NCBI GenBank assembly: GCA_033220425.1
Contig: CM065653.1
Coordinates: forward strand, 1,116,001-1,180,000
DNA: 64,000 nucleotides
Source of the DNA: Lepraria neglecta
Taxonomy: Eukaryota > Ascomycota > Lecanoromycetes > Lecanorales > Stereocaulaceae
Reading direction: 5' to 3'
The translations under genes were made by a program, and so were the position numbers. Shown here one piece after another: positions 5,761 to 49,334 of this stretch (position 1 is the stretch's first letter; each line of letters begins with the position of its first letter). The notes under the pieces were generated by a model, which saw only the letters and a list, made by a program, of their open reading frames with translations, did no database searches and had not been told where the DNA came from.

Positions 5761-6559
5761 GTTGTATTATGGAGCTACGGACACCAAATACATGGCGTCC
5801 AGACATGGGCTTTCTGCTAATCCTTCAGACGTGAGCATGCATCGCTTATTTGGATACTGCACTAGGTATAATTCTTTGATATGATCACATTAATCAGAAG
5901 CATGACAGTTGGATGATGACGCTCGTATTTCTCTCTGCAAACGCGCATGCAAGCTGCAAGAATCTATCCCTAACTCCGTGAAAACGACACAACAAATTCA
6001 ACCCGGCTTCAGCAAAGCCAACCGGGGTGACACTCACGAAAGCTCACTGCCTGTACCCTCCCAGGCCGAAGTCCCCTCTACTCCCAACTCCCCATCCAGC
6101 TACCACCCGAACCAGGTCACATTCCTCCTCACGTTGTCACCCCATACCCCCACCTACTCGACCAAACTCCCAGTCCGAAGATCAGGTGAGTGGTAAAGTA
6201 GGCCCTACCTCACAGACCAACATCTCGGTCTTAGAACCCCGCGAGCCTCAATAAAGTTCCTTGCCCGAAGGCAGATGCTACCTCACGGAGAACCGCAAGA
6301 TGGAAAGACGAAGAGTGCTCCGCAAGAATAGGTACCTTCTCTCGACCTCAGAAGGACCCCCCGAAGAGAGCCTCCCTTGGAGGAGATCGGGCGGGAGATA
6401 CAAAGGAAGTACAAGCATTCGTGCCACAGCTCCGGAAACCCTCCGAAGGTCTCCATCACTGATTAGAATGTATACTGTGCAGAAGAAAGTGGCCTAGCCG
6501 GCAGGTACGGAATTTGGGAAGTCAAAAGAAGAGGGCACAGGCAGCTCGCCAACGCTTTC
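5761..6559. other. Intergenic, weak open frames only
   Basis: Contains plus-strand frames of 75-95 codons (5909-6196, 6261-6497) that are Pro/Ser-rich and without recognisable motifs. I do not support them as genes. Confidence 0.45.
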
Positions 6560-8843
6560 TCATCTCGGTCGCCCCCTTGGTCCGGACACAAAGTTAGTCA
6601 TCGTCTGGTAGAGTTGGATGGTCTTCACTGGAGAAAAGTATCCAGCCCTCGCACGAGCGTGGTCACTCATCATCCCAATGACATACAGTGCCTTCCTCTG
6701 CACCTGAGTCTTCGTGTATGGGTGGAAAGGATCCCCAATCATGTTCGCGTTCGTCCAGATCGATCTCTCTTGCCTAGCCGCATTGCCTTGTGTCCACCAG
6801 AAGTAGCATAGCGCAAAGAACATTACAGCCAGACCAGCGCTCACGACCACCCCTGCAATCTTCTTGCCCGTCCAGAACTCAGCTTTCCCCAGCTTCTCGA
6901 CAATGTCATATGCCCCGCTCTGGGCCTTCGTAGCCTGGCCAATAGCATCGTCGCTGGTGTGTATGTTTGTGGAATGACCAATCTCCTGTTTGTGCCCAAC
7001 CTCGGATAGCCCGTCCTTGCCTCCCATCCCATTGTGAATGATGTCTTCGCTGCCCTGCGTACCTGGCAAATGATCAACCTCCCACACATTCCCAATCTCG
7101 CCTACCCCGTTCTGGGCCCTCAATTTCTTGTTAATGATGTCTTTGCTGCCCTGCGAACCCGGCAGACGACCAGCATCCCACACATTTCCAACCTCGAAAA
7201 GTCCGTTCTGGGGCCCCATCCCATTATCAATGACGTCTTCGTTGCTCCCTGTAGCTGTCTGATCTCCGGCTCCCGGCTCCACAACTGCTCCACTCTGGGC
7301 TTCTACCTCCTGACCAATGACGTCTTTGCTAGTCCATGTGATCGTTATATCATCAGGTCTCGCTTCTTCAGCACCCTCGTTCGCGTTAAACTCACTCCGC
7401 GTTGAGCCGCCGAAGGTTGATTTGGTTGGGGAATGGTCCCTTGAGCCAATGCTGCTGCCGATCTCAGACCGGACGGAACGGCCGACTAGTTGGCGGGGCG
7501 TTACTTCCATATCATAGCTCATCTCCGATGTAGTCTCGTCATCTGTTGTGTGTTCAGGGGCAGCATGCCTGTCAGGAATTTTTGATTGTGCAGCTTCAGC
7601 TTGATTTCTTTTGACGGATTCTAGCAGCTTCGCTTTACTAGCTTTGAGTTTCTCGACCTCCTTGCTCAGATTCCTATTTTCGTTTTTCAGCTTCTTGTTC
7701 TCGGCTTTTTGGTCGTTAATCCGGACATCTTTTTCGTGTAATGTCACATTCTTGAGCTTCGTTAACTCCTCTCGTAGCCCGTTTGCCTCGGTTAACATCC
7801 TCTCAGCCTCGGCCAAATACGCATCGTCGTTGGGGTTTCCATCCAATTTTTCACGGTACATTTTGTTCAGATCCCGTGCTTCCTGTACTTCGGAGTTAGT
7901 ATAGTGCATAAAACGTCATCTTAGAAGCAGAGAAGGTATCAAAAACTAGGTATGGAAAGTTGATTGTGTGCCAAAAACAGGGGTGCTAGAACAGCATCGA
8001 AGCCAAAACATGCTCTAAGAAGCAGAGAATGTGACCAACCACAGGGTAATAAAAGCAGGGTTCTTGCCAAAAGATAAACCTAAGAAGCAGAGAATGTGAC
8101 CGAAAACGAGGTATTGAAAGCAGGGGTTTTGCCAAAACATAAGCATGAGAAGTGAAAATGTTAATAAAGATAGGTATCAAAAGCTGAAATTTTGCCAAAC
8201 GACACGGCTCGAAAGCAAAAAGTGCACGGATTGAACGGCTCATAGCCCAAGAATTGCATGCTCTTACCTGCAATGAACGTTTCGTGTCCTTCAAAATGTT
8301 CTCTATCTTGCCCTTCTTCCGGTCCGTACCATTGACTTGGCCCAACAGACTGTTATGTGCCTGCTCTAACTTCTCAAACTCTTCAATTTTGGCCGTGGTG
8401 TCGGCTTCAAGTTCGGTGTAACTTGTCTGAAGTCGGTCATTGGCCTCTTTGAGCCGCTTGTTTTCCTCCTCAACGACTTCGATGTGTGCCTCTTGGTTGT
8501 TCACTTGGGTTTCCAGACGCGTTTTTTCGGACTTTAATTTTTCGAGTTCCTCGCGTAAGCTCTCGTTCTCGCCATAGAGTTCGAAAAGATCCTTGCGTGA
8601 ATCGCCATCCATGTCTGCAATGTTTGGGGGATCCAAAGCGCCTGGTGTGCTCGAATTGTGTGCGATGCGTAGAGTTTGTGAAGTGTATGAAGTGGAAGAG
8701 GTGGTGTTGTTGAAGTGAGATTGTGCGATGGGTGATCGCGGCATTGCGATGGAATGTGAATTTTGGAGTGACTGAGCTGGAAGGGGGCTTTCCTCTGTGA
8801 TTGGCTCATCTTGAGCTTCATCGCGGTTCGGCGATTGAGACAT
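6560..8843 (-). CDS. Coiled-coil single-pass membrane protein with 32-residue repeats
   Basis: Two exons, 8843-8268 and 7882-6560, give about 632 residues. The splice is supported by a GTAAGA donor, a TACTAAC branch point and phase 0 on both sides. The first exon begins with a disordered segment and continues as a long heptad-rich coiled coil, which carries on in exon 2 up to about residue 290. Next comes an acidic region with five copies of a roughly 32-residue repeat (anchor S/N-x-D-V/I-I, then GNVW and LPGSQGS), at 6860-7330 in DNA. A strongly hydrophobic segment near residues 534-555 (GVVVSAGLAVMFFALCYFWW) is followed by a 75-residue basic tail. There is no signal peptide, so a tail-anchored or type II topology is likely. 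The family is not recognised; tethering or scaffolding is only a guess. Confidence 0.72.
6860..7330 (-). repeat. Coding tandem repeat, 5 x about 96 bp
   Basis: Encodes the repeat units that start at the D-V/I-I anchors. Four of the five intervals measured are 29, 32, 32 and 32 residues. Copies are diverged but aligned in register. Confidence 0.65.
7923..8210. repeat. Intronic minisatellite, about 65 bp period
   Basis: Inside the 385-nt intron of the coiled-coil gene. Copies begin with AAGAAGCAGAGAATGTGACC at 8017 and 8082 and a decayed form at 8147, exactly 65 bp apart. A more diverged copy starts near 7923. Each unit also holds GAAAGCAGGG and TTGCCAAAA. Confidence 0.75.
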
Positions 8844-28809: not shown

Positions 28810-28904
28810 ACGGGATTAATGTTGTTGATATGTGCCTTCAAGGGTATTTGGAATTTCGCAGGATGACTAACTTTTAGACAAGAAAGAATGGAAACAAGTA
28901 TGAG

Positions 28905-31900
28905 GACCTAGCTTTTCCTCAACATAACCGTTCGCCAAGCACCTTCTCCCCATCACCACCAAGAATCTTCTCAAAAATGCTCTTAGTACCCTTGGCAGCA
29001 GCCCCACTGGCACAGACGAAAACCATCCCTTGCTTCTTCATGAGCTTGCTCCTGACTGTTGTCCATACACCCGACGTATCTTCGGGTTGCTTAACACAAT
29101 GTTAAGCGTATCGATGATGTTCAGTGACTTTGCTCCCTCCAAGATGTCTGTAGTCAGCGCCACATCGGATTCTTTGAGCCCAAGGGAAAGCGAGATGCCT
29201 GTACCCTGCGAGGGACGACGTTGTCCGGCTGCAAGAGCGCCACCAGTAGTAGCAATGCGCCACTGTAGCAAGCAGCGTAACAGGGCCAAAGCCAGCGCCT
29301 GTTGCGACGATGACGAAGGGCGCCAGGTAGTTTTCGCGCAGTTGTGGACCAGCCCTTGAGTCGACAAAGCGATACTTGAGAGGTGTAGGTGTGGTAAAGT
29401 TGTTAAGGAAAGTATCGCTGAAACGTTCGTCTTGATTGACCTTGACCATGATGTCGACTCTGTTACCAGTCACTGCTGCTGTTCCTTTACAATTCGAGGC
29501 GTAAAATGGCGACGAGGCCACGGAATATGTTTTGACGTGGAGGAGAGGCATGTCCAGGCAGACATCTCATTGGAGATAGTAGTCGAAGGCACGATCATCT
29601 TGCGCGAAACCTGTGTCGATGACACGCTCTAAGGCTTCGAGAACTGAGACTTTGCGCAAGTAATTTGGACTCAGGCCTCTTTGAAAGGCAAGTGCCACGG
29701 ACTTGAGCCATTCGAGCTCTAGGAATGGACGCTCAAGGTCCACAAACTCTGTCAAAAATATTCCGAAAGTTGGTGACTCGCCATCGAAAACCAAATTCAT
29801 CGGGTCGGAAGCGTCAATACACAATGCTTTGAGTGCTTGATCAACCTTAGCCGGTACGTTGAACGGGAGGACTTAAACGCAATTCACCTCTTCAAATGAC
29901 TCATTGCCGACGTTCAGGCTTATGAGGAAAGACCTATCACCTCTAGTCCCGACTTCTAGAACTATTACAACCAGCGTGCAGTCTTTGAGTGTCGACAGCA
30001 GCTCTTCTTGTTGATCGTCATACTTTTGAGTCGCGTCTTCGGCAGGCTTGCTTCCCTCTACAGAAGCCTCTACGGAAGCGGAAAGCACATCGTTAATTCT
30101 CGGCTGTAGCTTTTCCCACCAAGTACTCAATGAACGTAGGGGAGCGGTTCCGCAGCAGTATCACCCTGCCAAATTCCACGCATCAGCGAACTTCCTCCCA
30201 TTTGCTTCATCAATGAATGTGTCTTGACGGCTGCTCCATTGTAACTGTTCGAGTAGCGGCTGTCGCCGTTGCCGAAAACCGCAAATTTGAAACCCTTGTT
30301 GCCAGGCGATGGTGTATTTGCTAGTACGTCGTGACACATCTCTTCGAAAGCTAAGCCATTGGCTGGGGTATCGCCTTGTCTGCATGATCCCGGAGTCAGC
30401 ATTCCCCTTTTGAGATGATTCTTGAGTCGATAGATATGTCTTGTGAGCCGGAAAAAATTTCCCGCCACACAAGGGCCTAATGAGGAATAATAGCTCAGAA
30501 AACACGACTCACCCAGTAGAGCTTACGATCAGGAGAAAGATCTTGTCCGCCGTAAGATCAGAGGCATACAAGCTATTCAAGGATTCGACCTTAGAGTTGA
30601 GGGAGGTATTAGAGACCTTCTCGATATACGAGCTCGTCCACTGGTGGAGCTTGGTCGCTAGCTTCTCTGCGAATTTTTCCGCACTGCAGAAATAGATTTC
30701 TATACATCTGCTCGCAAGTTGTAGATTTTGCACGGTATCTACCGGCCTAGGCGAGGGTACGCTGTGAGGCAGGGGTTCGACGTCGCCTGTCACCTCATAT
30801 GTGAGAACTCTTGTCTCGGGTTTGCTGTAGGCCGCAAGATTTTGAAGCTCTTGAACCTCAACGACGGCTGTAGAAGGCTGTGATGCAATAGGGCAGAGAT
30901 GCTTCTCTCTTCCCCAATCCTCGATCGGGTCTTGTACGTGCTTTGAGATCATGGGTTTTGGCTGTAGCATGCATGTCAGCTCCGGTATTCATCTGGTCAG
31001 AAATCACGAAAACATTACCTGATAATTCGGTGCGCCGCCTCGATGCCAGACTGGGATGATGGATCCCTGTGGTGGTGCAAGCCAGTCTAGAAGACTCGGG
31101 TTAGCATTTCTCGTAGATCTGAGAGCCAAGTCATGAGACAAGCTCATGGAGTAAACGAGAAGGCCAAATTCCTGATGCCTCTTCCGCAGGAATCGAAGTA
31201 TTGCTTACAGGGATCAGCCGGCAATCTATAACCGTTCTTCTGCCTGAACCCTTCGTCGTATTGACACCACTTCATTGACGCCGTAAGCGAATCACTCATA
31301 GTGACCTTGGCTTGGATCAAAGACCGATTAACGGCGTAAGTCAATTCGGCTTGATCTCTTGATAGCATTGATAGCTTTTCGTACTCCGGAAGGTCCTCAA
31401 ATGTCTCAAAGCCATGACCCAGCTTCCCGTGTGTAAGATCGAGAGCACGGACCATGTCGGATAAGACATTGTAACGGAAGGAGTCAGCAAGGTTGCGAAC
31501 CCCTATTTCGGCATCCATGAACCTGGGAGAATCAGACGTCGTGAATATCGTGTAAAACTGATGGCTTAAACATACCAGCCTAGGAAAGGTGTAGCAGTGT
31601 ACTGTACACCGCCAATGTCAAACCCAAGCCTTGTTAAGGCAGGAAAAGAGACCCATTTGAGACCGAGCTTTTCGAACTGGGCGGCGTACTGTGGATGGTG
31701 AATGTTCATAAGAGGGCGTAAGTATGTCGGGATTTCGGTAAAGGCAGGAAGGTCGCCTTCAGCGATAGCAACAAGTGGTAGGAGATGCCAAGGGCTTCTT
31801 GACTCTGGGCGCACCCAGCCAAGCTCAATGATCGCTTTCGTCAATTTGACGCTATTCGGATCGCCTATGATGGAGCCGTCCTCTGCTTCATAGCCTGCAA

Positions 31901-32600
31901 ATTCAAGGATCTGATGATTTCCAGAACATTGGTTCTCGGCAGTCGACACCACGCGGTGGGAAAACAAATACTGTGGGTAAGATATTGCCCCCGTTGAAGG
32001 CCTCGAAAATCCCTTTCAGCACCTCTGCAACCATTTGTGAACTTGACGTGACTGCTCTAAGGTCACAAAGCTTCCGCTCGTCGCTGTGCGATCGCATGAT
32101 GCACTTTCTCGCGTTCCTCCACGCCCTTCGAATACCAAAGTCGAATTCCTCTGACGTTTGCGTCCAATTGCCACCAACCGGTATTGTCCTCTCGTATGAC
32201 GGCCTCAACCGCTCCGTCCCGGATCTCACCCAGTACTTCCTCCAGCTGGCTTTGGAACGCATCCTCGCTGTCAAAGAAACATTCCACATGTAGATCCTGT
32301 AGATAATGTTCGGCTTCCTGTTCGACTATGCTCAGCGCTCGATTCTCGCCTACTCTAGGCTCATCAGTGTGAAGTGCTCTTCCTGCCTGGCAGAAGTCCT
32401 TGGTACAGCCCGTGGATGCGAGGGTGGCATGATCGACTTGAATTCGTTGGAGTTCAGGTGCCAACGCCGGACGCTGAATGGGATCTCGAAGCCCGTCGTC
32501 CAGACCTTGAGGCATTCTTGGAGCCAGCCGATGCTGGCCTCGATACTCGAGCTCTACGATCAATTACCCTAAGAGTGCGCAGCTTAAACGAATGGAATTT
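28905..32600 (-). pseudogene. Decayed fungal nitric oxide synthase (oxygenase + reductase)
   Basis: NOS makes nitric oxide and citrulline from arginine using haem, pterin, FMN, FAD and NADPH. In order on the minus strand: a leader with HTDEPRVGENR; the haem-cysteine motif RRAWRNARKCIMRS; LPTVFVFPPR; LEFAGYEAEDGS; ELGWVRPESRSPWHLLPL; GLKWVSFPALTRLGFDIGG; a splice joining FLGW to FMDAEIGVRNLADSFRYN; LAPPQGSIIPVWHRGGAPNY; then a flavodoxin half (IYFCSAEKFAEKL, LIVSSTGQGDTPANG, AVFGNGDSRYSNSYNG), and a FAD/NADPH half (RPFLELEWLKS, VKTYSVASSPFY, YLAPFVIVATGAGFGPV, VFVCASG). Introns still splice cleanly, but there are two in-frame stops (near 29568 and 29874) and about six frame changes, so no full protein can be made. 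The N-terminus is not defined. Confidence 0.82.
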
Positions 32601-33136: not shown

Positions 33137-35242
33137 CTAGCTGAGCTTATTTCCAAAGGCAAGCCGGCTCTGGCCCTTCTCAATCCTCTTCTGGATAGAC
33201 AAATTCCCAGGTCGAGTGCCTTGCGTCTTCTTTGGACCTTGAGCGTGGCCGGTAGCTTTCGACGAATCTGATCTCGGGTCGGGTGTAGAAGTAGTGCGCT
33301 CCTGTGCCTGCAGGTCACGTGCGAAATGCCAGTCTTCGTGTTCACTCTTAGCCGTGATTGGTATGCTTTTGCTGCAACGGTCACAAAACCATGATTCCAA
33401 GGAGGATTGCTGTAGAGGCGCTAAAGTCCCCCTGTGTTGAGTTGTACTTCGTTTTGTCTTGGCTTCCTCGTCGTAATTCACTCTTTCGCTGGTTTCGTCC
33501 GACGAAGGTCCTGATTGCACTGGGGATGTATTACCAGCGTGATCTGCGGGGTCAGAATATTCCGCGGAGTCCTCGTGACTTATTTCCCCCTTTTGGAAGA
33601 AGTTCTGGATGCCGCCATCGTTGAGTCGACGCCGCTTCTCTGGAAGCTCATCATCATTGGTTGAAGCAACGCCATCGGTATCGCGACCTGAGGGCATCAT
33701 GGCCTTCGCTTCCTCTCCTCTAACCAGGAAGCCGCCAATGCCCCGATTGCCAGTTGGCCCGTCCTCGAAGCCGCCGACGCTTAGCTGTAAATTACTGCAT
33801 GGCCAGGCCCTGCCATCTACAACAATCTGGCCTAGTAGGTTCTTGGCAATGTCAAACATCATCGACTCATCGATTGGCCTTCCAGTAGGGATAGGAGCTT
33901 GGCGCGATCTCATTTGTGCGCCTTGCCGATGGTGCAGATTTAGAGTCTTTGGTCTTCGTTTATTCTCCAGTACGCCCTCCTCTACCAGTCTCGACATAAT
34001 GTCAGCTACGAAGATACGCAGCCACCTGACTGCTTGTTCAGAGGTATTGATGATCGGACGGAATGACTTTGCGGAGAGCATCGATTTGATTTGTGTCCGA
34101 GCATTCACTTCGCTTGAGTCTTCTCCGCGAATGATGTGGTAGACCCATGTGCCCGTATCGTCCCCTAGCTTGGACTTTAGTTGCTCGATAGGGACTGAAA
34201 GCAGTTCCTTGACCTCATCAGTAGCGAATTTGGATACCACTTCGTCTCCCAGCTTCCCACCAAGATTGCGGATTTTTGTAAACTTGAATTCTCCAAGAAA
34301 ATATTGCACTGCTCGATTTCGGACGATAGTCTGCTGATTCGGTTTCTTGTGTCCTGAACCCAGCTTGGCGATCATCTTATTGCGAGCTATTCCAGCAGAA
34401 GAAGTGTACTTTAGGCGCTCACGAATTGCGGCACGCACTAACCGAACGATCTCAGAGCCAAGAAGAATAGCGATGTCATCCCAGTCGGGGTCATCGTCTT
34501 CTGTCTCGGAAACATCAAGATCCACTAATGCATCTGTATTCCAGTCGAGTGCAGTAGTAGAAGGTCGTGGGAGGAATTCTGTAGGATCGTCATATGGAGC
34601 CGGACCGCTGATCTCGGGATATCTCTCCAGTAGTATAGAATGTATCTGGGCAGACAGGTCTAGGAAGACCTCGTCAACGCTGGCTTTTTCGACTCTCTGA
34701 ATTGGCGGTGCTGGCAATACATCCTTGATGCATGCCAGTATCCTCCTTGATTCTAGCCGGTACGGGTCGAGCGAGACCTTGTGTGTTGCAATGTGTGCGA
34801 ACGCATCTTTGTGATATGCCCATTTCTCATCGCCCTCTTTCCATGTAGCCACATGTTGTATGATCAGATTCGGACATAGTTTCTTTGCTTCGACGATGTT
34901 GATATGTCTGTTGAGACCGAATTTCCTGGCAGGGTAATTGATGGCAATGAGGCCTTGCCATTGCTGATCTAAATATCAGCCGTCTGCCGTTCCCAGTAAG
35001 CTATTGGGGCTGACCTGAACAGCAAGGGGCTGATCCTCTGCGATGCCTAGCCGAACACCTTCGCACTGCGCATAGAAGGCATCTAGATCAATGTGGGCTA
35101 TGACCCGGAGTGGACACGTGGTAGAGGAGTTGCCGAGTTGAGTAAGATGCTTGTATGTGAAGCGTGATTTGCGTCTACGGCCAGCAGCTGGGGAAATGGG
35201 AGACGAGGCAAGGAACGGCTGTGAGGAAGACATGGCAGCCAC
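33137..35242 (-). CDS. RAD30: DNA polymerase eta (Y-family)
   Basis: Translesion polymerase that copies past UV dimers. Two exons, 35242-35015 and 34963-33137, 684 residues. The intron ends at ATCAG so that PLAVQ joins QWQGLIAINYPAR. Catalytic motifs are intact: HIDLDAFYAQCE (first carboxylates), SVDEVFLDLS (second pair) and SAGIARNKMIAKLGSGHKKP with a helix-hairpin region after it. The little-finger domain follows. The tail has a PIP-box-like GIQNFFQKG and a UBZ3-type zinc finger WFCDRCSKSIPI with the helix EHEDWHFARDLQ (Cys2-His2 ligands), both used to bind PCNA and its ubiquitin. The fungal insert rich in Asp/Glu after DWNTDALVDLDV is usual. The start could also be the Met three codons further in. 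Confidence 0.94.
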
Positions 35243-42000: not shown

Positions 42001-44717
42001 TAGCAACAGACTTCGGGGTAAGTACTCAACGTAAAGACTGCGACTAGGCACAAAGAATTAATTGAATTCCCACGATAGAACGCACTCTTCATGCGTACAG
42101 CTAAGTAGCCCGACTTGGAGATCGTGTTGGAATCTCTGGCTTGACGGATAGGAGCCGACAACAGCTCTTTCACACTATATACTGCGAATCTGGGAAAAGC
42201 AATTGATTGTTCGGTGTTACTAATTCCTAGGCTGAGGTTTCGCTCAATCGTTGTTCCATGGTATTTCCACCAATTTGCCCCCTAAAAGCAAAAGTCATGA
42301 CTTGACGTACGGGATCTCTACCCTTGAAACTCACGATTCGGAGCATCAATTCTTTGCAAAATGGTTCAATGTCCTCGGTTCCTTACCCGAAAAGATCCTT
42401 ATTCTACATCGGTTTGTATACCGGCCACTAGCAATGAACTGAGCATGGACAACGGCAATCGCAGACTTACGGAAGCGTTCAGCGATGTAACAAGACTTCA
42501 TCGATTGGGGTTAGCTCCCATATTTGAACTGAGGGCCAGACATACAAGTGTCTTCCTTCAGCACTCTAGAGGAGTGTTTTGTATTTTCCTTCCGTAGAAT
42601 TTGACCACCATGGTTGGGCTTAGCCACCCAAAGTACAATGGTACGAGTCCTTTATGGGCGACATGCATGGCCTGTGATTTATCTGCCGAGTTGCCCCATT
42701 TTCTCGATTTAAATTCGTTTCCTATGCGCTGGTACAATGCGGTAAGGATGTCGTTGTCTTCTTTCGTCAAGCTTCCTATTTAAAAGCGCCTATATGATTT
42801 AACTACAACTATTATCAATTAGCACAGGGAAGGTTCTGGGCCACTTTATTGCTTCCATAAGTCATTACATTAGGGAAGTAGGTCACTCTGTCTTCAACGA
42901 GAAGGCGCGAATGGTTGCAGAGTGGAGAGTGAGAAGAGGATGTGAGCAGAGGATGTAAGAAGAGGATGTGAGAAGAGGGTGTAAGAAGAGGATGTGAGAA
43001 GATATAAACAAGCATATTGAAGGATGTTGATAATTCCTATGAGAATAAAAGTATACAGGAACGTCATGAACCAGCAAATAATGCACAAATAGATGGGAAT
43101 TTCATGACCTCTCAGCACGAACAATTGCTGCTGGCTGCAGTAAGATCTGGACATTGCCTCATTACTTGACATTCTCAGTTGCCAAGCCTAGGAGGCGGCA
43201 TCTGGCCTAGCGCACCCGGAACGCGCCAACTCAATAACACGTTTCAGCAGCTGCAACTTCATACCTACCCATACTAATTATCACGAGAGCCTTCTGTTAC
43301 CTTCCTCATGAAGAGACAATCAGTCACAAGAAGCGAACACACACATAAGGCTTTCCTTGTCTCAGCTTGGCCTTCAGGGGTTACGCCTCCCGCAGGTACT
43401 GCAATCTTTAGCCCTTGTTCGTGGCGCAGTCACTCTCACACCTTCTTTCTGCATACATGAAACGCCGCTCGCAGAAAATGGACACCACACGAAACATTCG
43501 TACCGGACGCCAGCCCCCGGGAACAATACGACGCCTTTCTCGAACCAATGAAATTTTCCCTCATGATATCATTGCGTTACTCTCGTTATCGCTCTGGAAA
43601 TTTGATAGAACCCCTCGCAGACACGTTACCGAGAATAAGATCGCTGAAACAAGACCGTATCGATCGTGTCCCATCATCTCAGCTCTAGGATCGAGCTGCA
43701 GGACTTTTTGGTTGCCCAAAGTAGAGCCCGCATCTGGGCTATTTACCGGTCGCTGAAATCCATCTAACGGCTAGGTGGCCTCAATACCGGTCAAAAATTA
43801 CACGCAAGGGTGAATTCGCACGATGTGATTTTGCAAAAATTTCCAAAAGAGACCTGATATGCATCAGTCAGAATGTTGTACAAGCATCAACGCTGATCTG
43901 AGAGAGGCGTCGATCCATGGGCCAACCTAGATAACACCCTACCCGAATCGCGGCCGTACCCATATTAATCTTATGACACTATTTTACTGTCAGCCGGCCC
44001 GAAAACCTTTGACCGTTGCCCGTTTGCCGCCCACTTTCGAAGGTGAAGAAATGATACAACAGCTTAGGGATCTTGAGGTTGCTGTGTCTGGTAATATTCT
44101 AATATTCTTCACCCAAGAGACCTCTGAGCGGAGCCAATCCTAAAATTAGGGCAGCGTCCAGGTCTTTGGTTAAGTAAGGAGGTCTAGTAGTGCGGAAGCC
44201 ACCCGCCCCTAAACAAGAGTGGCACGCTAATCTCCCGCTGCGGCCCCCCTAAATTAGTACCATTACCAATGAAAACGAAACCGAAGTTAGCCTCCACCTC
44301 GCACTGGAGACATCCCTACCTCTGAACAATAGTCATAGCATGCCACCAGATCCCGGCAGAGGAGATTGCCAGTGTTGGGGTTCACGCCTCAGGGATGACG
44401 CACTGTTGACCCAGCTAGTCTCCGAATGGGCTCTCCCCGGTAGCCTGGTCGCGACATCAGATTGTCATTTGAAAATTCTGCAATGGCGTACCCTCGTGTT
44501 GGTTTTGATTGCTGGAGTGCTGAGCCTCCTTGAGGAAATTGCCTTTCTGGTGTTTGCGGTGTAGGAGTGATTGAGTTCTTGTTGTATATACTTGCAATAC
44601 CTCCGTCTTTCCCAGTTGTGTCCTTTTTCAATCTTTCTTCGTCCATTTGCACACTGTGTGCGGGTTTCACTCCGGAAAATTACCTACTATACTTGCTTTG
44701 TATGAGATCTATCACGC
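42001..44717. other. Gene-poor stretch
   Basis: No supported gene in 2.7 kb. Frames such as 42251-42442, 43415-43756 and 44340-44564 have no motifs. It carries the 13-bp repeat listed separately; the last 300 bp should hold the promoter of the secreted protein. Confidence 0.45.
42932..43006. repeat. 13-bp tandem repeat, about 5.5 copies
   Basis: Units AGAAGAGGATGTG and AGCAGAGGATGTA alternate, so a 26-bp higher-order period is visible: starts 42932, 42945, 42958, 42971, 42984, 42997. Purine-rich on this strand. Confidence 0.85.
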
Positions 44718-47700
44718 TTGGACATGATGTTTACCTCATATTTATTTCTATTCACACTCCAATATCTCTTTCTTCGTTGTCAGGCATACCCTAAATTCGC
44801 GGGTGTGAGAGATGCCCACCCACAAATTACTGCCGCCCCAGTTATAGGTGCCCTACATGAGAATGAGCTTCTACGCCGCCAAGATACTTGCACGTGGGCC
44901 TGTGCCGTATGCGCTATGTACGCACCCTGCGAGACCTGTGTCAGTCTTAGTACACCGGCTGGAATTGAGTGCTGCACGTCGAAGCTCGCAGATCAAAGTG
45001 CCTGCCCCACAGGCAACGTTCCTCCCGACTCGACAATCTATATATACACGCTTGGAAGCCTAACGCTTTATGGAGATCCTACAAGCCTCGTTATTGGAAG
45101 CAACACCCTCACCCCAGGAGGCGCTCCTGCTACCGCGAGCGGTCATACTTTTTCGCTCCCGACTACGGCTACCGGTGGGGGAGTCGTCGAGGATGGAACG
45201 ACTACCGCGCTGGGAACGCCGATTTCAACCGTCGTAGGTACAGGAACGGGTCCGGCTAGTACATTATGCCCTGTCCAGCAGATTTCTGACGGCCAGCCAC
45301 AAAACGTGCCTTGCTCTAGTACGAACACTGGGACTCAGACCACGAATACAAACACAGACACCAATACTAACACCAATATCAATACCGATACGAACACGAA
45401 CGCCAACACGATCACCAATACTGGAGCAGGAACAGGAATGGCGACAGTCAATACTAGCACCAATACGAATGCTGGCACCAATACCGGGACGGGCAACCCT
45501 GGGACTGGCACCAATACTGGGACTGGCACCAATACTGGGGCCAATACCCAGACTGGCACTGGTGTCAATACAAACACCAATACTGGGACTGGCACCAATA
45601 CTGCGACCAATACTCAGACTGGCACTGGTGTCAACACAAACACCAATACTGGGACTGGCACTGGTGTCAATATAAACACCAATACTGGGACTGGCACAAA
45701 TACTGGGACCAATACTCAGACTGGCACTGGTGTCAATACAAACACCAATACTGGGACTGGCACAATTACTGGGACCAATACTCAGACTGGCACAGGCGCA
45801 GGCACTGGTGCGATTACGGGCACTGGTATCACTACCAACACGAATACAAACACCGCAGGGGTATTATCTACATACACAATTGACGGAATCCCCTTCACAG
45901 GCAATCCCACCAGTTTGGTAGCGGGCACTGTTACCTTAACCCCTGGCGGGTCTAGCCTGACTTCCTTTGGTCACACGATTGCCATTCCCACCAGCGCCAC
46001 TGGCGGACAGATTCAAGTGGATGGTAGCTCAACCGTTTTGCCTACTCCTATCACAACAAATGCACCAGCGACTTCGTCAACATACACGATCGATGGTATC
46101 GCCTTCACGGGCAATCCCACCAGTTTGGTAGGTGGCACCGTCACATTAACACCTGGTGGCCCTAGCCTGACTTCATCCGGCCACACCATAGCGATTCCTA
46201 CCAGTGCCACTGGTGGGCAAATTCAAGTCGATGGTACTACGACTTCTTTGCCCGGCCTAAACACCGCTACAAATACAGGGACGGGAACAACCGGTACGAA
46301 CACCGGCACCAATACTGGCACCATTACTGGCACAGGTACAGGCACGAATGCTGGGACAATCACTGGCACAGGGGTCTCACGCACTTCATATATAGCAACG
46401 AACGTACCCTCTGGGCTACCTTGGGGTGTCATGCTCACCACAGTATCGAGCAAATCTTACACTTTGACCTGGGTCGGATCCAAGATCAACTCCCCAACTA
46501 CTATCATAGAGACTGGCCCGTCAACAACTGAGACTACCTCTCAGACCGCAGGAGGCTTTATCTGGACCGTCCCGACCCTGCCAGCAGGCTTCCCTGGACC
46601 CCCTCCGGGACCGCCCTCAGGATTTCCCGACCCAATTGGCGGAGGAATCGACCCCATTGTTCCTGGGTGCATCTTTGGCTGCGGACCTCCAGGATTAGGG
46701 GGGTGGTGGTGGGGGCGGTGGCCTTCCATGTCTCATTGATTGTGGAGGCGGAGGTGGTGGTGGTGGAGGTGGTGGGAATCCCGACCCAGATCCTAGCAAA
46801 CCGAATCCCTCAGACAACGACCCCAGCAATAGCAAAACAACACAGAATCAACCTACTAGCACAAATTCGGCATCATCGTGCTCGACCTCGACGTTCCCCT
46901 CTTGCACGCAAGTGGTTTCAGTCTCATCTTCAACAACCATCACCTCAACATCGTGCATTACCATTACCGGATGCAGTGGTACCGCAACGACGGGAGTCTC
47001 GACAGCTAGCGCCTCTAGCACGGGCGTGTATTGTAGTATTGGCTGTGCTGGGTGTGGCCCTGCTTCCAAATTGAAGAGCAAGCGCGATCTACCGCTTATG
47101 ATTGAGGGACGACTAGCTACGCCCAAGGATTATTGGCGAGATGATTTGGCCAAACGCCATGGTCTGGCATCCTTACCCGCAGACTATATGCAAGATGACC
47201 GTTGGAAGCGTGGTTACATTCCCCAAGTGAGTGATTCGGACTTTGCCAACAACGTGAACAACTTCATCACCGAGCAAATAGCGCCTACTTATCCCGGAGC
47301 AAAACCGTGTCCTATAAATTATCAAAATCCGTTTTCGACAGCTCTCACGGTGGCTTTTGACGCACCCCCGGACGAGGGCAACTATTCACCTTCCCTTAGA
47401 GGATTAGAGGGCTGCACCTCTGTCGTGATTATTGGAGAAAAAGGATGCTGGATCAGCCACTTTTGGGAGATACCATGGTTCACAGGCTACACACAGAATA
47501 CGGAATCTGGCGTGACCAACTTTCAGACGAACATCATCAATCCACTCGAAAATGGAGGCGGGGCTAATATGCCCAGCCCTTTTGCTGCTGGAGGCCAGAC
47601 AAGCCGAATACCAGAGTTAGCCGACCGCGAGAGCGTAAACGGCGCACCAGGCTACAAGCCAGAAATCCGAATCCTGACAAAAGCAGATGAATCTGGCAAT

Positions 47701-49334
47701 TACGTGTATGACACTGAGGTAAGACACGTCTCCTAAAGTTAAGATATTTCGGGAGTAAGATTGGAATATAACCTCTATTCTGGTCATAAAGAAGCAATGT
47801 CGATACTAAATCTTACCAGGTGGGCCTAATAGTGCAAGCTTTGACTGGACCAGGCAGGGCTTTTGAGGGGTGTACGGTCACCAAAACGCCGTATGTTCCA
47901 ATTACGCAAGACCCGAATACCGATAACGCTAAGGGCAAGATTCTTATCCAATACACCAACGATCAGCAAAACGACATGGGTGAGCAGTTAGTCTGTCCCC
48001 AACAAGCTATCTACAAAGTCTGGTTCGAGGAGAACATGGTTTCAGAACATACATGGCCTGCTGTAGGAGACCAGATAGCTGGCGGCACAGGCAATAAGAA
48101 ACGTCAGAATGGAGCCTGTTCCGCTGCTCAAAGCGGTTCAAACACAGCTACAGGGACAAATACCGGAGGCACCAATACAAACACTAACACGCAAACGAAC
48201 GCCAATACAAATACAAAGACCAATACTGCGACCAGCACCGGAACCAATTCCGGATTTACGACATCGATCATCAGTAGCTCCAACACCATCACCACTGGTC
48301 CCACCAGGACAAGTGGAGCAGGCACGACTGGTTCTTCTCATTCTTCTACATCTTACTTTTGCTATCCCTACCAGGATCCTGACGCTGGGCCAGCGCCCCC
48401 ACAGTGTGAGTGTGACGGACTCGATGGCTTTTATCCGTATCTAAGCTCTACTTCCGGTCAATCTAACTACAATCCTTGCGGGTACACAACATCACCAACA
48501 ACGGCCCCTGCAACATCGGTGGCACCTTTCACGACAACTGAGTCTGACGGAGAGGTGGTGTCTTGTGCTTCTTCTACATACTACAATTACGCAGTAAACA
48601 CGATTCCCACTTGTGCGGGAGCAACGAAAGTCGTATCTACAGTCGCCTCAATTGCTTCAGTATACTCCGCGTCGGTCGCTTCCTCTGTTTCGGCAGCATC
48701 GATCGCTTCAGTTGCGTCTGCGTCTAATGCAGCTTGGTCCTCCGCTGCGGCTGTCCCAAGTGCTGCTTGCTGGATTCTCGCCGACGATGGGTTCGGAGAT
48801 TCTGCCTTCGAAGTCTATGGAATCAATGGATGGGCTGGACCTGGGGGCTCGAACCTCTGGCAACAGGAAAATGGGTGCGGTATTGTATCAGGTGGAGAGT
48901 TCTACACAAACCGGGTGAGCGAATTCGAAGGTCACCTCCGAGACACACAGTACGCGTATTTCGGTTTGAGCTTCTTCAAGGGCGGCTGCGTTGAACGCGC
49001 TGTTCATTCCGCTGGGGGACCAGCCCCAGGTACTGGACCTGGTCAAATCGCGTGTCAACATGTTCCGTCGAATCTCGACAGCGACCAGCTGGACGCTGTG
49101 AATAGAATTTCGGGTCCGCAACTCAAAGCGGTCCAGGTCGTGGCAGATGGTAATTCGACAACTAACAGCCTCCCGAATACTACGGAGGATGAGGTTGTCC
49201 AACCAGGCGAGTCTTCGTCAGCCTCAACAGGAGGATCAAACGCAGACCTGGTGGCATCGGCTTCTGCAGCGCTACCTCATCTTTCGTCTGCTGCAAATGC
49301 TGCATCATCAGCTCCAGCGCCGACTAGTACCTAG
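44718..49334 (+). CDS. Large secreted Thr/Asn/Gly-repeat protein
   Basis: Signal peptide [20 protein letters not shown] ending near CQA, then a dibasic RR at residues 53-54 and a Cys-rich segment (eight Cys within about 40 residues). Three copies of a roughly 65-residue module share [25 protein letters not shown] and ATGG. Long T/N/G stretches made of a 22-residue unit lie between module 1 and 2. After a Gly/Pro-rich stretch, the second half has two more dibasic sites (KSKRDLP, NKKRQNG) around a conserved fungal domain with [25 protein letters not shown] and [11 protein letters not shown]. An intron (47719-47819) joins YDTE to VGLIVQ. The C-terminus is again Ser/Ala/Thr-rich. A run of six G at 46698-46703 puts the two halves one base out of frame; five G would join them. 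Probably a wall or secreted matrix protein. Confidence 0.75.
45330..45860 (+). repeat. Coding minisatellite, 66-bp unit
   Basis: About five copies of a unit starting ACTGGGACTGGCACCAATAC, one shortened to 36 bp, preceded by simpler ACCAATAC runs. Encodes the [20 protein letters not shown]-type 22-residue unit. A second, smaller T/N tract lies near 48140-48250. Confidence 0.85.
46698..46703 (+). other. G6 run at a frame break
   Basis: The frame up to GPPGLG and the frame from the following Gly-rich [10 protein letters not shown] segment differ by one base across this run. It is flanked by 200 bp of clean coding sequence on both sides. Confidence 0.6.

Follow-up and report, generated by a model that had tools for sequence, protein, structure and literature searches.

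The minus strand of the window between positions 32515 and 28870 very probably carries the remains of a fused nitric oxide synthase (NOS) gene, whose partner on another contig has been broken independently, both copies having presumably decayed once selection on the arginine–NO route lapsed. The window is a 64,000-nt stretch (C8:1116001-1180000) of the 42.0 Mb, 11-contig assembly of Lepraria neglecta, and the partner lies on contig C4. Each copy would once have made NO from arginine, with NADPH electrons passing through FAD and FMN to the haem; selection on this route would then have lapsed in the lineage and both copies decayed, and NO, if still produced, would arise by another route such as nitrate reductase. 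The two genes form an old pair, in which the window copy carries introns and the C4 partner is intronless at the same four places.

The window pseudogene spans 28870-32515, with a candidate start ATG at 32515 and both ends uncertain, and can be aligned to the C4 copy from 32455 down to 28928. Its oxygenase region (30900-32455, minus strand) is recognised as three separate pieces matching PF02898 at 64, 115.2 and 36.3 bits (Pfam cut-off 22.7 bits). A fourth piece matches flavodoxin at 29.8 bits (cut-off 25 bits) and belongs to an FMN region (30133-30709, minus strand; PF00258 and codon alignment) that is split by intron 4. The first-pass annotation, which had read a dead NOS here, is borne out by these two above-threshold domains in a gene broken by lesions; the presence of the PF02898 oxygenase also means that the locus is not a P450 reductase lacking a NOS oxygenase. 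The motifs RRAWRNARKC and WHRGGAPNY are legible directly in the window translation, and the codon alignment places WRNARKC, EIGVRNL and WLAPPQGSIIPVWH in both copies; we take these to be the haem-ligand cysteine and the substrate/pterin-site blocks. Near the N-terminus both copies also carry a CxxxxC motif (CTKDFC in the window, CTRDIC on C4), presumably the zinc motif of the N-terminal hook in animal NOS. The neighbouring gene, recognised by Pfam as DNA polymerase eta-like, retains an open frame of 612 aa (33137-34975, minus strand). An Rfam scan of the window gave no match.

The last third of the gene is a divergent FAD/NADPH region (28928-29941, minus strand) with the blocks KTYSVASS and VIVATGAGFGP, delineated by tblastn, own-genome search and hhalign. 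In neither copy does this third match a flavin or NADPH Pfam family at E up to 1; a sequence search of the C4 tail against the PDB returned no reductase, and NCBIfam gave only weak matches to it (cysJ, E 0.12; BoxA, E 0.017). The two tails nevertheless recognise each other: the C4 tail matches that of the window by tblastn at E 5.65e-48 (5.3 kb subject) and at E 8.1e-44 in a search of its own genome, where no locus beyond the C8 and C4 copies appears at E up to 0.01. A profile built from the C4 tail and two window tail pieces aligns over 304 columns with five reductase stretches of the FAD_binding_1 family from this assembly (hhalign E 5.8e-9, probability 95.9, 18% identity), the match passing through RxYS-like and GxGxGP-like blocks. 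Since profile comparison detects the tail, the gene does run from oxygenase through FMN to FAD/NADPH, the last of these parts being divergent. The full animal-like architecture proposed in the first-pass annotation therefore stands as regards domain order, but the reductase tail is divergent and not canonically animal. A derived FAD domain is described for the NOS of Aspergillus and Dendrothele in PMC10073611, and the divergent tail found here fits that description. An AlphaFold model of the C4 tail had a mean pLDDT of 41.4 and was discarded, with no support drawn from it.

Four introns were placed in the window copy by codon alignment, all on the minus strand and all of the GT...AG type: intron 1 (31575-31523, 53 nt, GTATGT...CAG), intron 2 (31208-31087, 122 nt, GTAAGC...TAG, with CTAAC ahead of the acceptor), intron 3 (31018-30962, 57 nt, GTAATG...CAG) and intron 4 (30512-30380, 133 nt, GTGAGT...CAG). 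The C4 copy lacks all four and reads straight through at those places, and removal of each intron from the window copy restores the frame seen there, in agreement with the earlier reading that the introns still splice in frame. The C4 copy may have arisen by retroposition or have lost its introns, or else C8 may have gained them.

The coding frame of the window copy is interrupted twice by a stop codon in frame, a TAA (29875-29873) and a TGA (29569-29567; minus strand, codon alignment). It also shifts five times: close to 32179, 31918, 30131 and 29278, and once in the interval from about 29100 to 29040. A probable but uncertain sixth frame change near 28935 was read from the frames by eye, outside the codon alignment. 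The two stops and roughly six frame changes first reported for this locus are thus recovered. Lesions were called on the assembled sequence, by comparing the two broken copies with each other and with PDB chains.

A PF02898 search of the assembly, with all four candidates scored, returned the three pieces of the window gene and a single further match, C4:2094692-2095846. This match belongs to a second copy of the same architecture at about C4:2094476-2097795 (L005:4477-7796), and a frameshift-aware codon alignment joins the two copies end to end. Its oxygenase aligns to PDB NOS chains across the WRNARKC, EIGVRNL and WLAPPQGSIIPVWH blocks, and the first oxygenase piece finds its best PDB match in 9q05 (1468 aa; E 6.6e-27), which, judging by name and length, we take to be the cyanobacterial SyNOS. 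Two contig scans with C4 pieces, aimed at bacterial relatives, gave 29 and 580 pattern matches, none confirmed as a relative. The C4 copy is itself broken by three in-frame TGA codons starting at L005 positions 5230, 5647 and 5890 (codon alignment), the third in a weakly conserved stretch and two of them inside the oxygenase domain, by a frame change near 6454, and by one or two more in the weakly conserved stretch from about 6652 to 6690, two according to the alignment. No lesion occupies the same aligned place in both copies, although one pair lies about 40 bases apart, and because none is common to both, the two losses look like separate events.

Neither the PF02898 search nor the search with the C4 tail detected a third NOS copy in the 42.0 Mb assembly, and since the sole other PF02898 match is broken too, no intact NOS was found in the assembly. 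The intact paralogue that the first-pass annotation had suggested looking for in the same genome was accordingly not detected, the only other copy found being the damaged one on C4. For the same reason the loss is not limited to the window locus: the suggestion of a fairly recent loss here is compatible, if imprecisely, with the number of stops in the window copy. Upstream of the C4 NOS lies a flavin-dependent monooxygenase gene (PF01494; C4:2091238-2092610, L005:1239-2611) that also looks broken: a TAA falls in frame at L005 1806-1808 and the reading frame shifts near 2080, introns here having been judged by eye. The C4 NOS and this neighbour may have decayed together.

Over 856 aligned codons, counted only in blocks that reach both 10 codons and 30% identity, the two NOS copies share 56% amino-acid identity and differ at 0.33, 0.23 and 0.65 of first, second and third codon positions, respectively. 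Synonymous differences are saturated (pS 0.83), against a pN of 0.28; the separation of the copies is therefore old, and their divergence built up mainly while the protein was under selection, which acted on both NOS copies during the greater part of their existence. Under the rough assumption that stops arose randomly after selection lapsed, the two stops of the window copy translate into 0.016-0.019 neutral substitutions per site since loss (95% range 0.002-0.068), and the three of the C4 copy into about 0.024-0.030 (0.005-0.087). Rough as they are, the estimates point to neutral change of a few per cent after the loss and agree with late decay in both copies. Where the copies differ and an outgroup NOS agrees with one of them, it matches C4 at 25 sites and C8 at 11 (binomial p 0.029; sum over three of the four outgroup rows, with 291 aligned sites), which indicates that C8 has drifted further than C4. 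The sum excludes nNOS (5 sites matching C4, 3 matching C8), since its row and that of 2flq span the same stretch. RIP as a cause of decay was considered and rejected, there being no RIP-like dinucleotide shift at either copy: TpA/ApT and (CpA+TpG)/(ApC+GpT) are 0.69 and 1.23 at C8, 0.44 and 1.43 at C4, and 0.76 and 1.23 for the window.

Among the alternatives to decay of both genes, the one that survives best, unlikely as it is, holds that assembly or sequencing errors made the stops and frame changes and that the organism itself has an intact gene at one locus or at both. Every lesion does rest on the assembly, about a dozen of them are concentrated in two genes, and the flavin monooxygenase beside the C4 copy likewise shows a stop and a frame change. 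Yet substitution-type stops are present besides indels, and the examined frame changes lie away from long homopolymers: within 12 nt of the eight places examined (six on C8, two on C4) the longest run of identical bases is 4. Other genes stay open over hundreds of codons, though they were picked for being open: in the window the polymerase eta-like frame and a TPR frame of 992 aa, and an ORC1-like frame of 758 aa and a WD40 frame of 479 aa near the C4 copy. The greater distance of C8 from the outgroups is also what real decay predicts, though faster evolution would have the same effect. A slimmer chance still attaches to the possibility that the window copy never worked in this lineage and is what remains of DNA recently inserted from another fungus, an idea that draws on the rarity of fungal NOS genes (as stated in PMC10889981) and their occurrence in scattered genera (PMC4778047). 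Against it, GC content is 0.501 at the copy and 0.497 in the window, GC by codon position is near that of the polymerase eta frame, and a paralogue of the same type exists elsewhere in the genome, all of which would remain compatible with an old transfer. Least probable of all, and hardly credible, is an enzyme working in pieces, its oxygenase and reductase acting in trans from separate frames, as PMC4160249 proposed for adjacent ORFs of Macrophomina phaseolina: C4 does retain an open frame of 193 aa covering most of the flavodoxin and a FAD/NADPH frame of 396 aa, but the oxygenase is cut by two stops in C4 and by two frame changes beside introns in C8, and no listed open frame at either locus contains it whole, which argues against a working split enzyme.

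Decay of two once-functional genes is thus the preferred reading, and it can be extended into a more specific scenario that we consider an even bet. The pair would be ancient, its intronless member possibly a long-working retrocopy, and it would have died twice, independently and in a short span, in a lineage that recently stopped deriving NO from arginine and kept nitrate reductase. Candidate genes with nitrate-reductase domains are still present in the assembly. One, a molybdoenzyme gene at C4:2707882, combines molybdopterin, dimerisation, cytochrome b5, FAD and NAD domains, a layout that we take to be that of a eukaryotic nitrate reductase; read in the raw frame, its molybdopterin stretch contains two stops, attributable either to introns or to lesions. 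Nitrate-reductase-dependent NO has been described in fungi (PMC4929157), and such a route may have made NOS dispensable. The tetrahydrobiopterin gene PTPS gave no match in the genome, a result given no weight in this reading.

Other features of the genome were recorded alongside the NOS loci. At least 150 HET-domain matches are present, from 150 scored out of 196 candidates, which points to a filamentous ascomycete. For 5.8S rRNA, the 39 of 1298 candidates scored gave no match. Within the window, an open frame at 46699-47733 begins with a long run of glycine codons and is flanked by two large frames at 44706-46736 and 47790-49331, which have no Pfam match at E up to 0.001.

Two broken NOS genes in one lineage illustrate that a patchy distribution can come from loss, and an apparently NOS-free fungus is offered for comparison with its sister species. 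If the scenario of a recently abandoned arginine route is true, this genome amounts to a natural double knock-out of a disputed fungal NOS pathway. The case is useful to the question of where fungal NO originates, and it also serves as a warning that a broken gene may lie behind fungal NOS entries whose annotation shows separate ORFs side by side. In published reviews, how fungi synthesise NO is described as not clear and NOS genes as rare there (PMC10889981), and fungi are even said to have no NOS orthologues and only distant NOS-like proteins (PMC4929157); NOS is known from Aspergillus, Colletotrichum/Glomerella, Neofusicoccum and Macrophomina (PMC4160249, PMC4778047). The literature searched, in which most subscription papers were not included, yielded no account of a NOS pseudogene in a fungus, gene loss being among the subjects looked for. 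Fungal NOS being already known, this clear double gene loss is a new example in a known family and no new kind of system.

The likeness to animal NOS (nNOS, eNOS, iNOS) lies in the oxygenase homology, established for the C4 copy, in the N-terminal CxxxxC and in the fused FMN and FAD/NADPH parts; the difference lies in a FAD/NADPH tail that neither Pfam nor a PDB sequence search recognises here. SyNOS has an N-terminal globin domain according to PMC6104048, whereas none was detected in the Pfam-scanned pieces of the present genes. Among fungal enzymes, the NOS of Aspergillus and Dendrothele shares a derived FAD domain with the copies described here (PMC10073611), and the fused fungal NOS of PMC4160249, to which the present genes are likened by description, carries oxygenase, flavodoxin and FAD-binding parts in one chain as they do, but both copies here are broken. 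In Macrophomina phaseolina (PMC4160249) the oxygenase and reductase blocks adjoin without sharing one frame, as here; there, however, the arrangement is taken as a working split enzyme, whereas the lesions here mark broken genes. By analogy with the present pair, the adjacent M. phaseolina ORFs (EKG20706.1, K2S718) could alternatively be read as a broken or misannotated gene.
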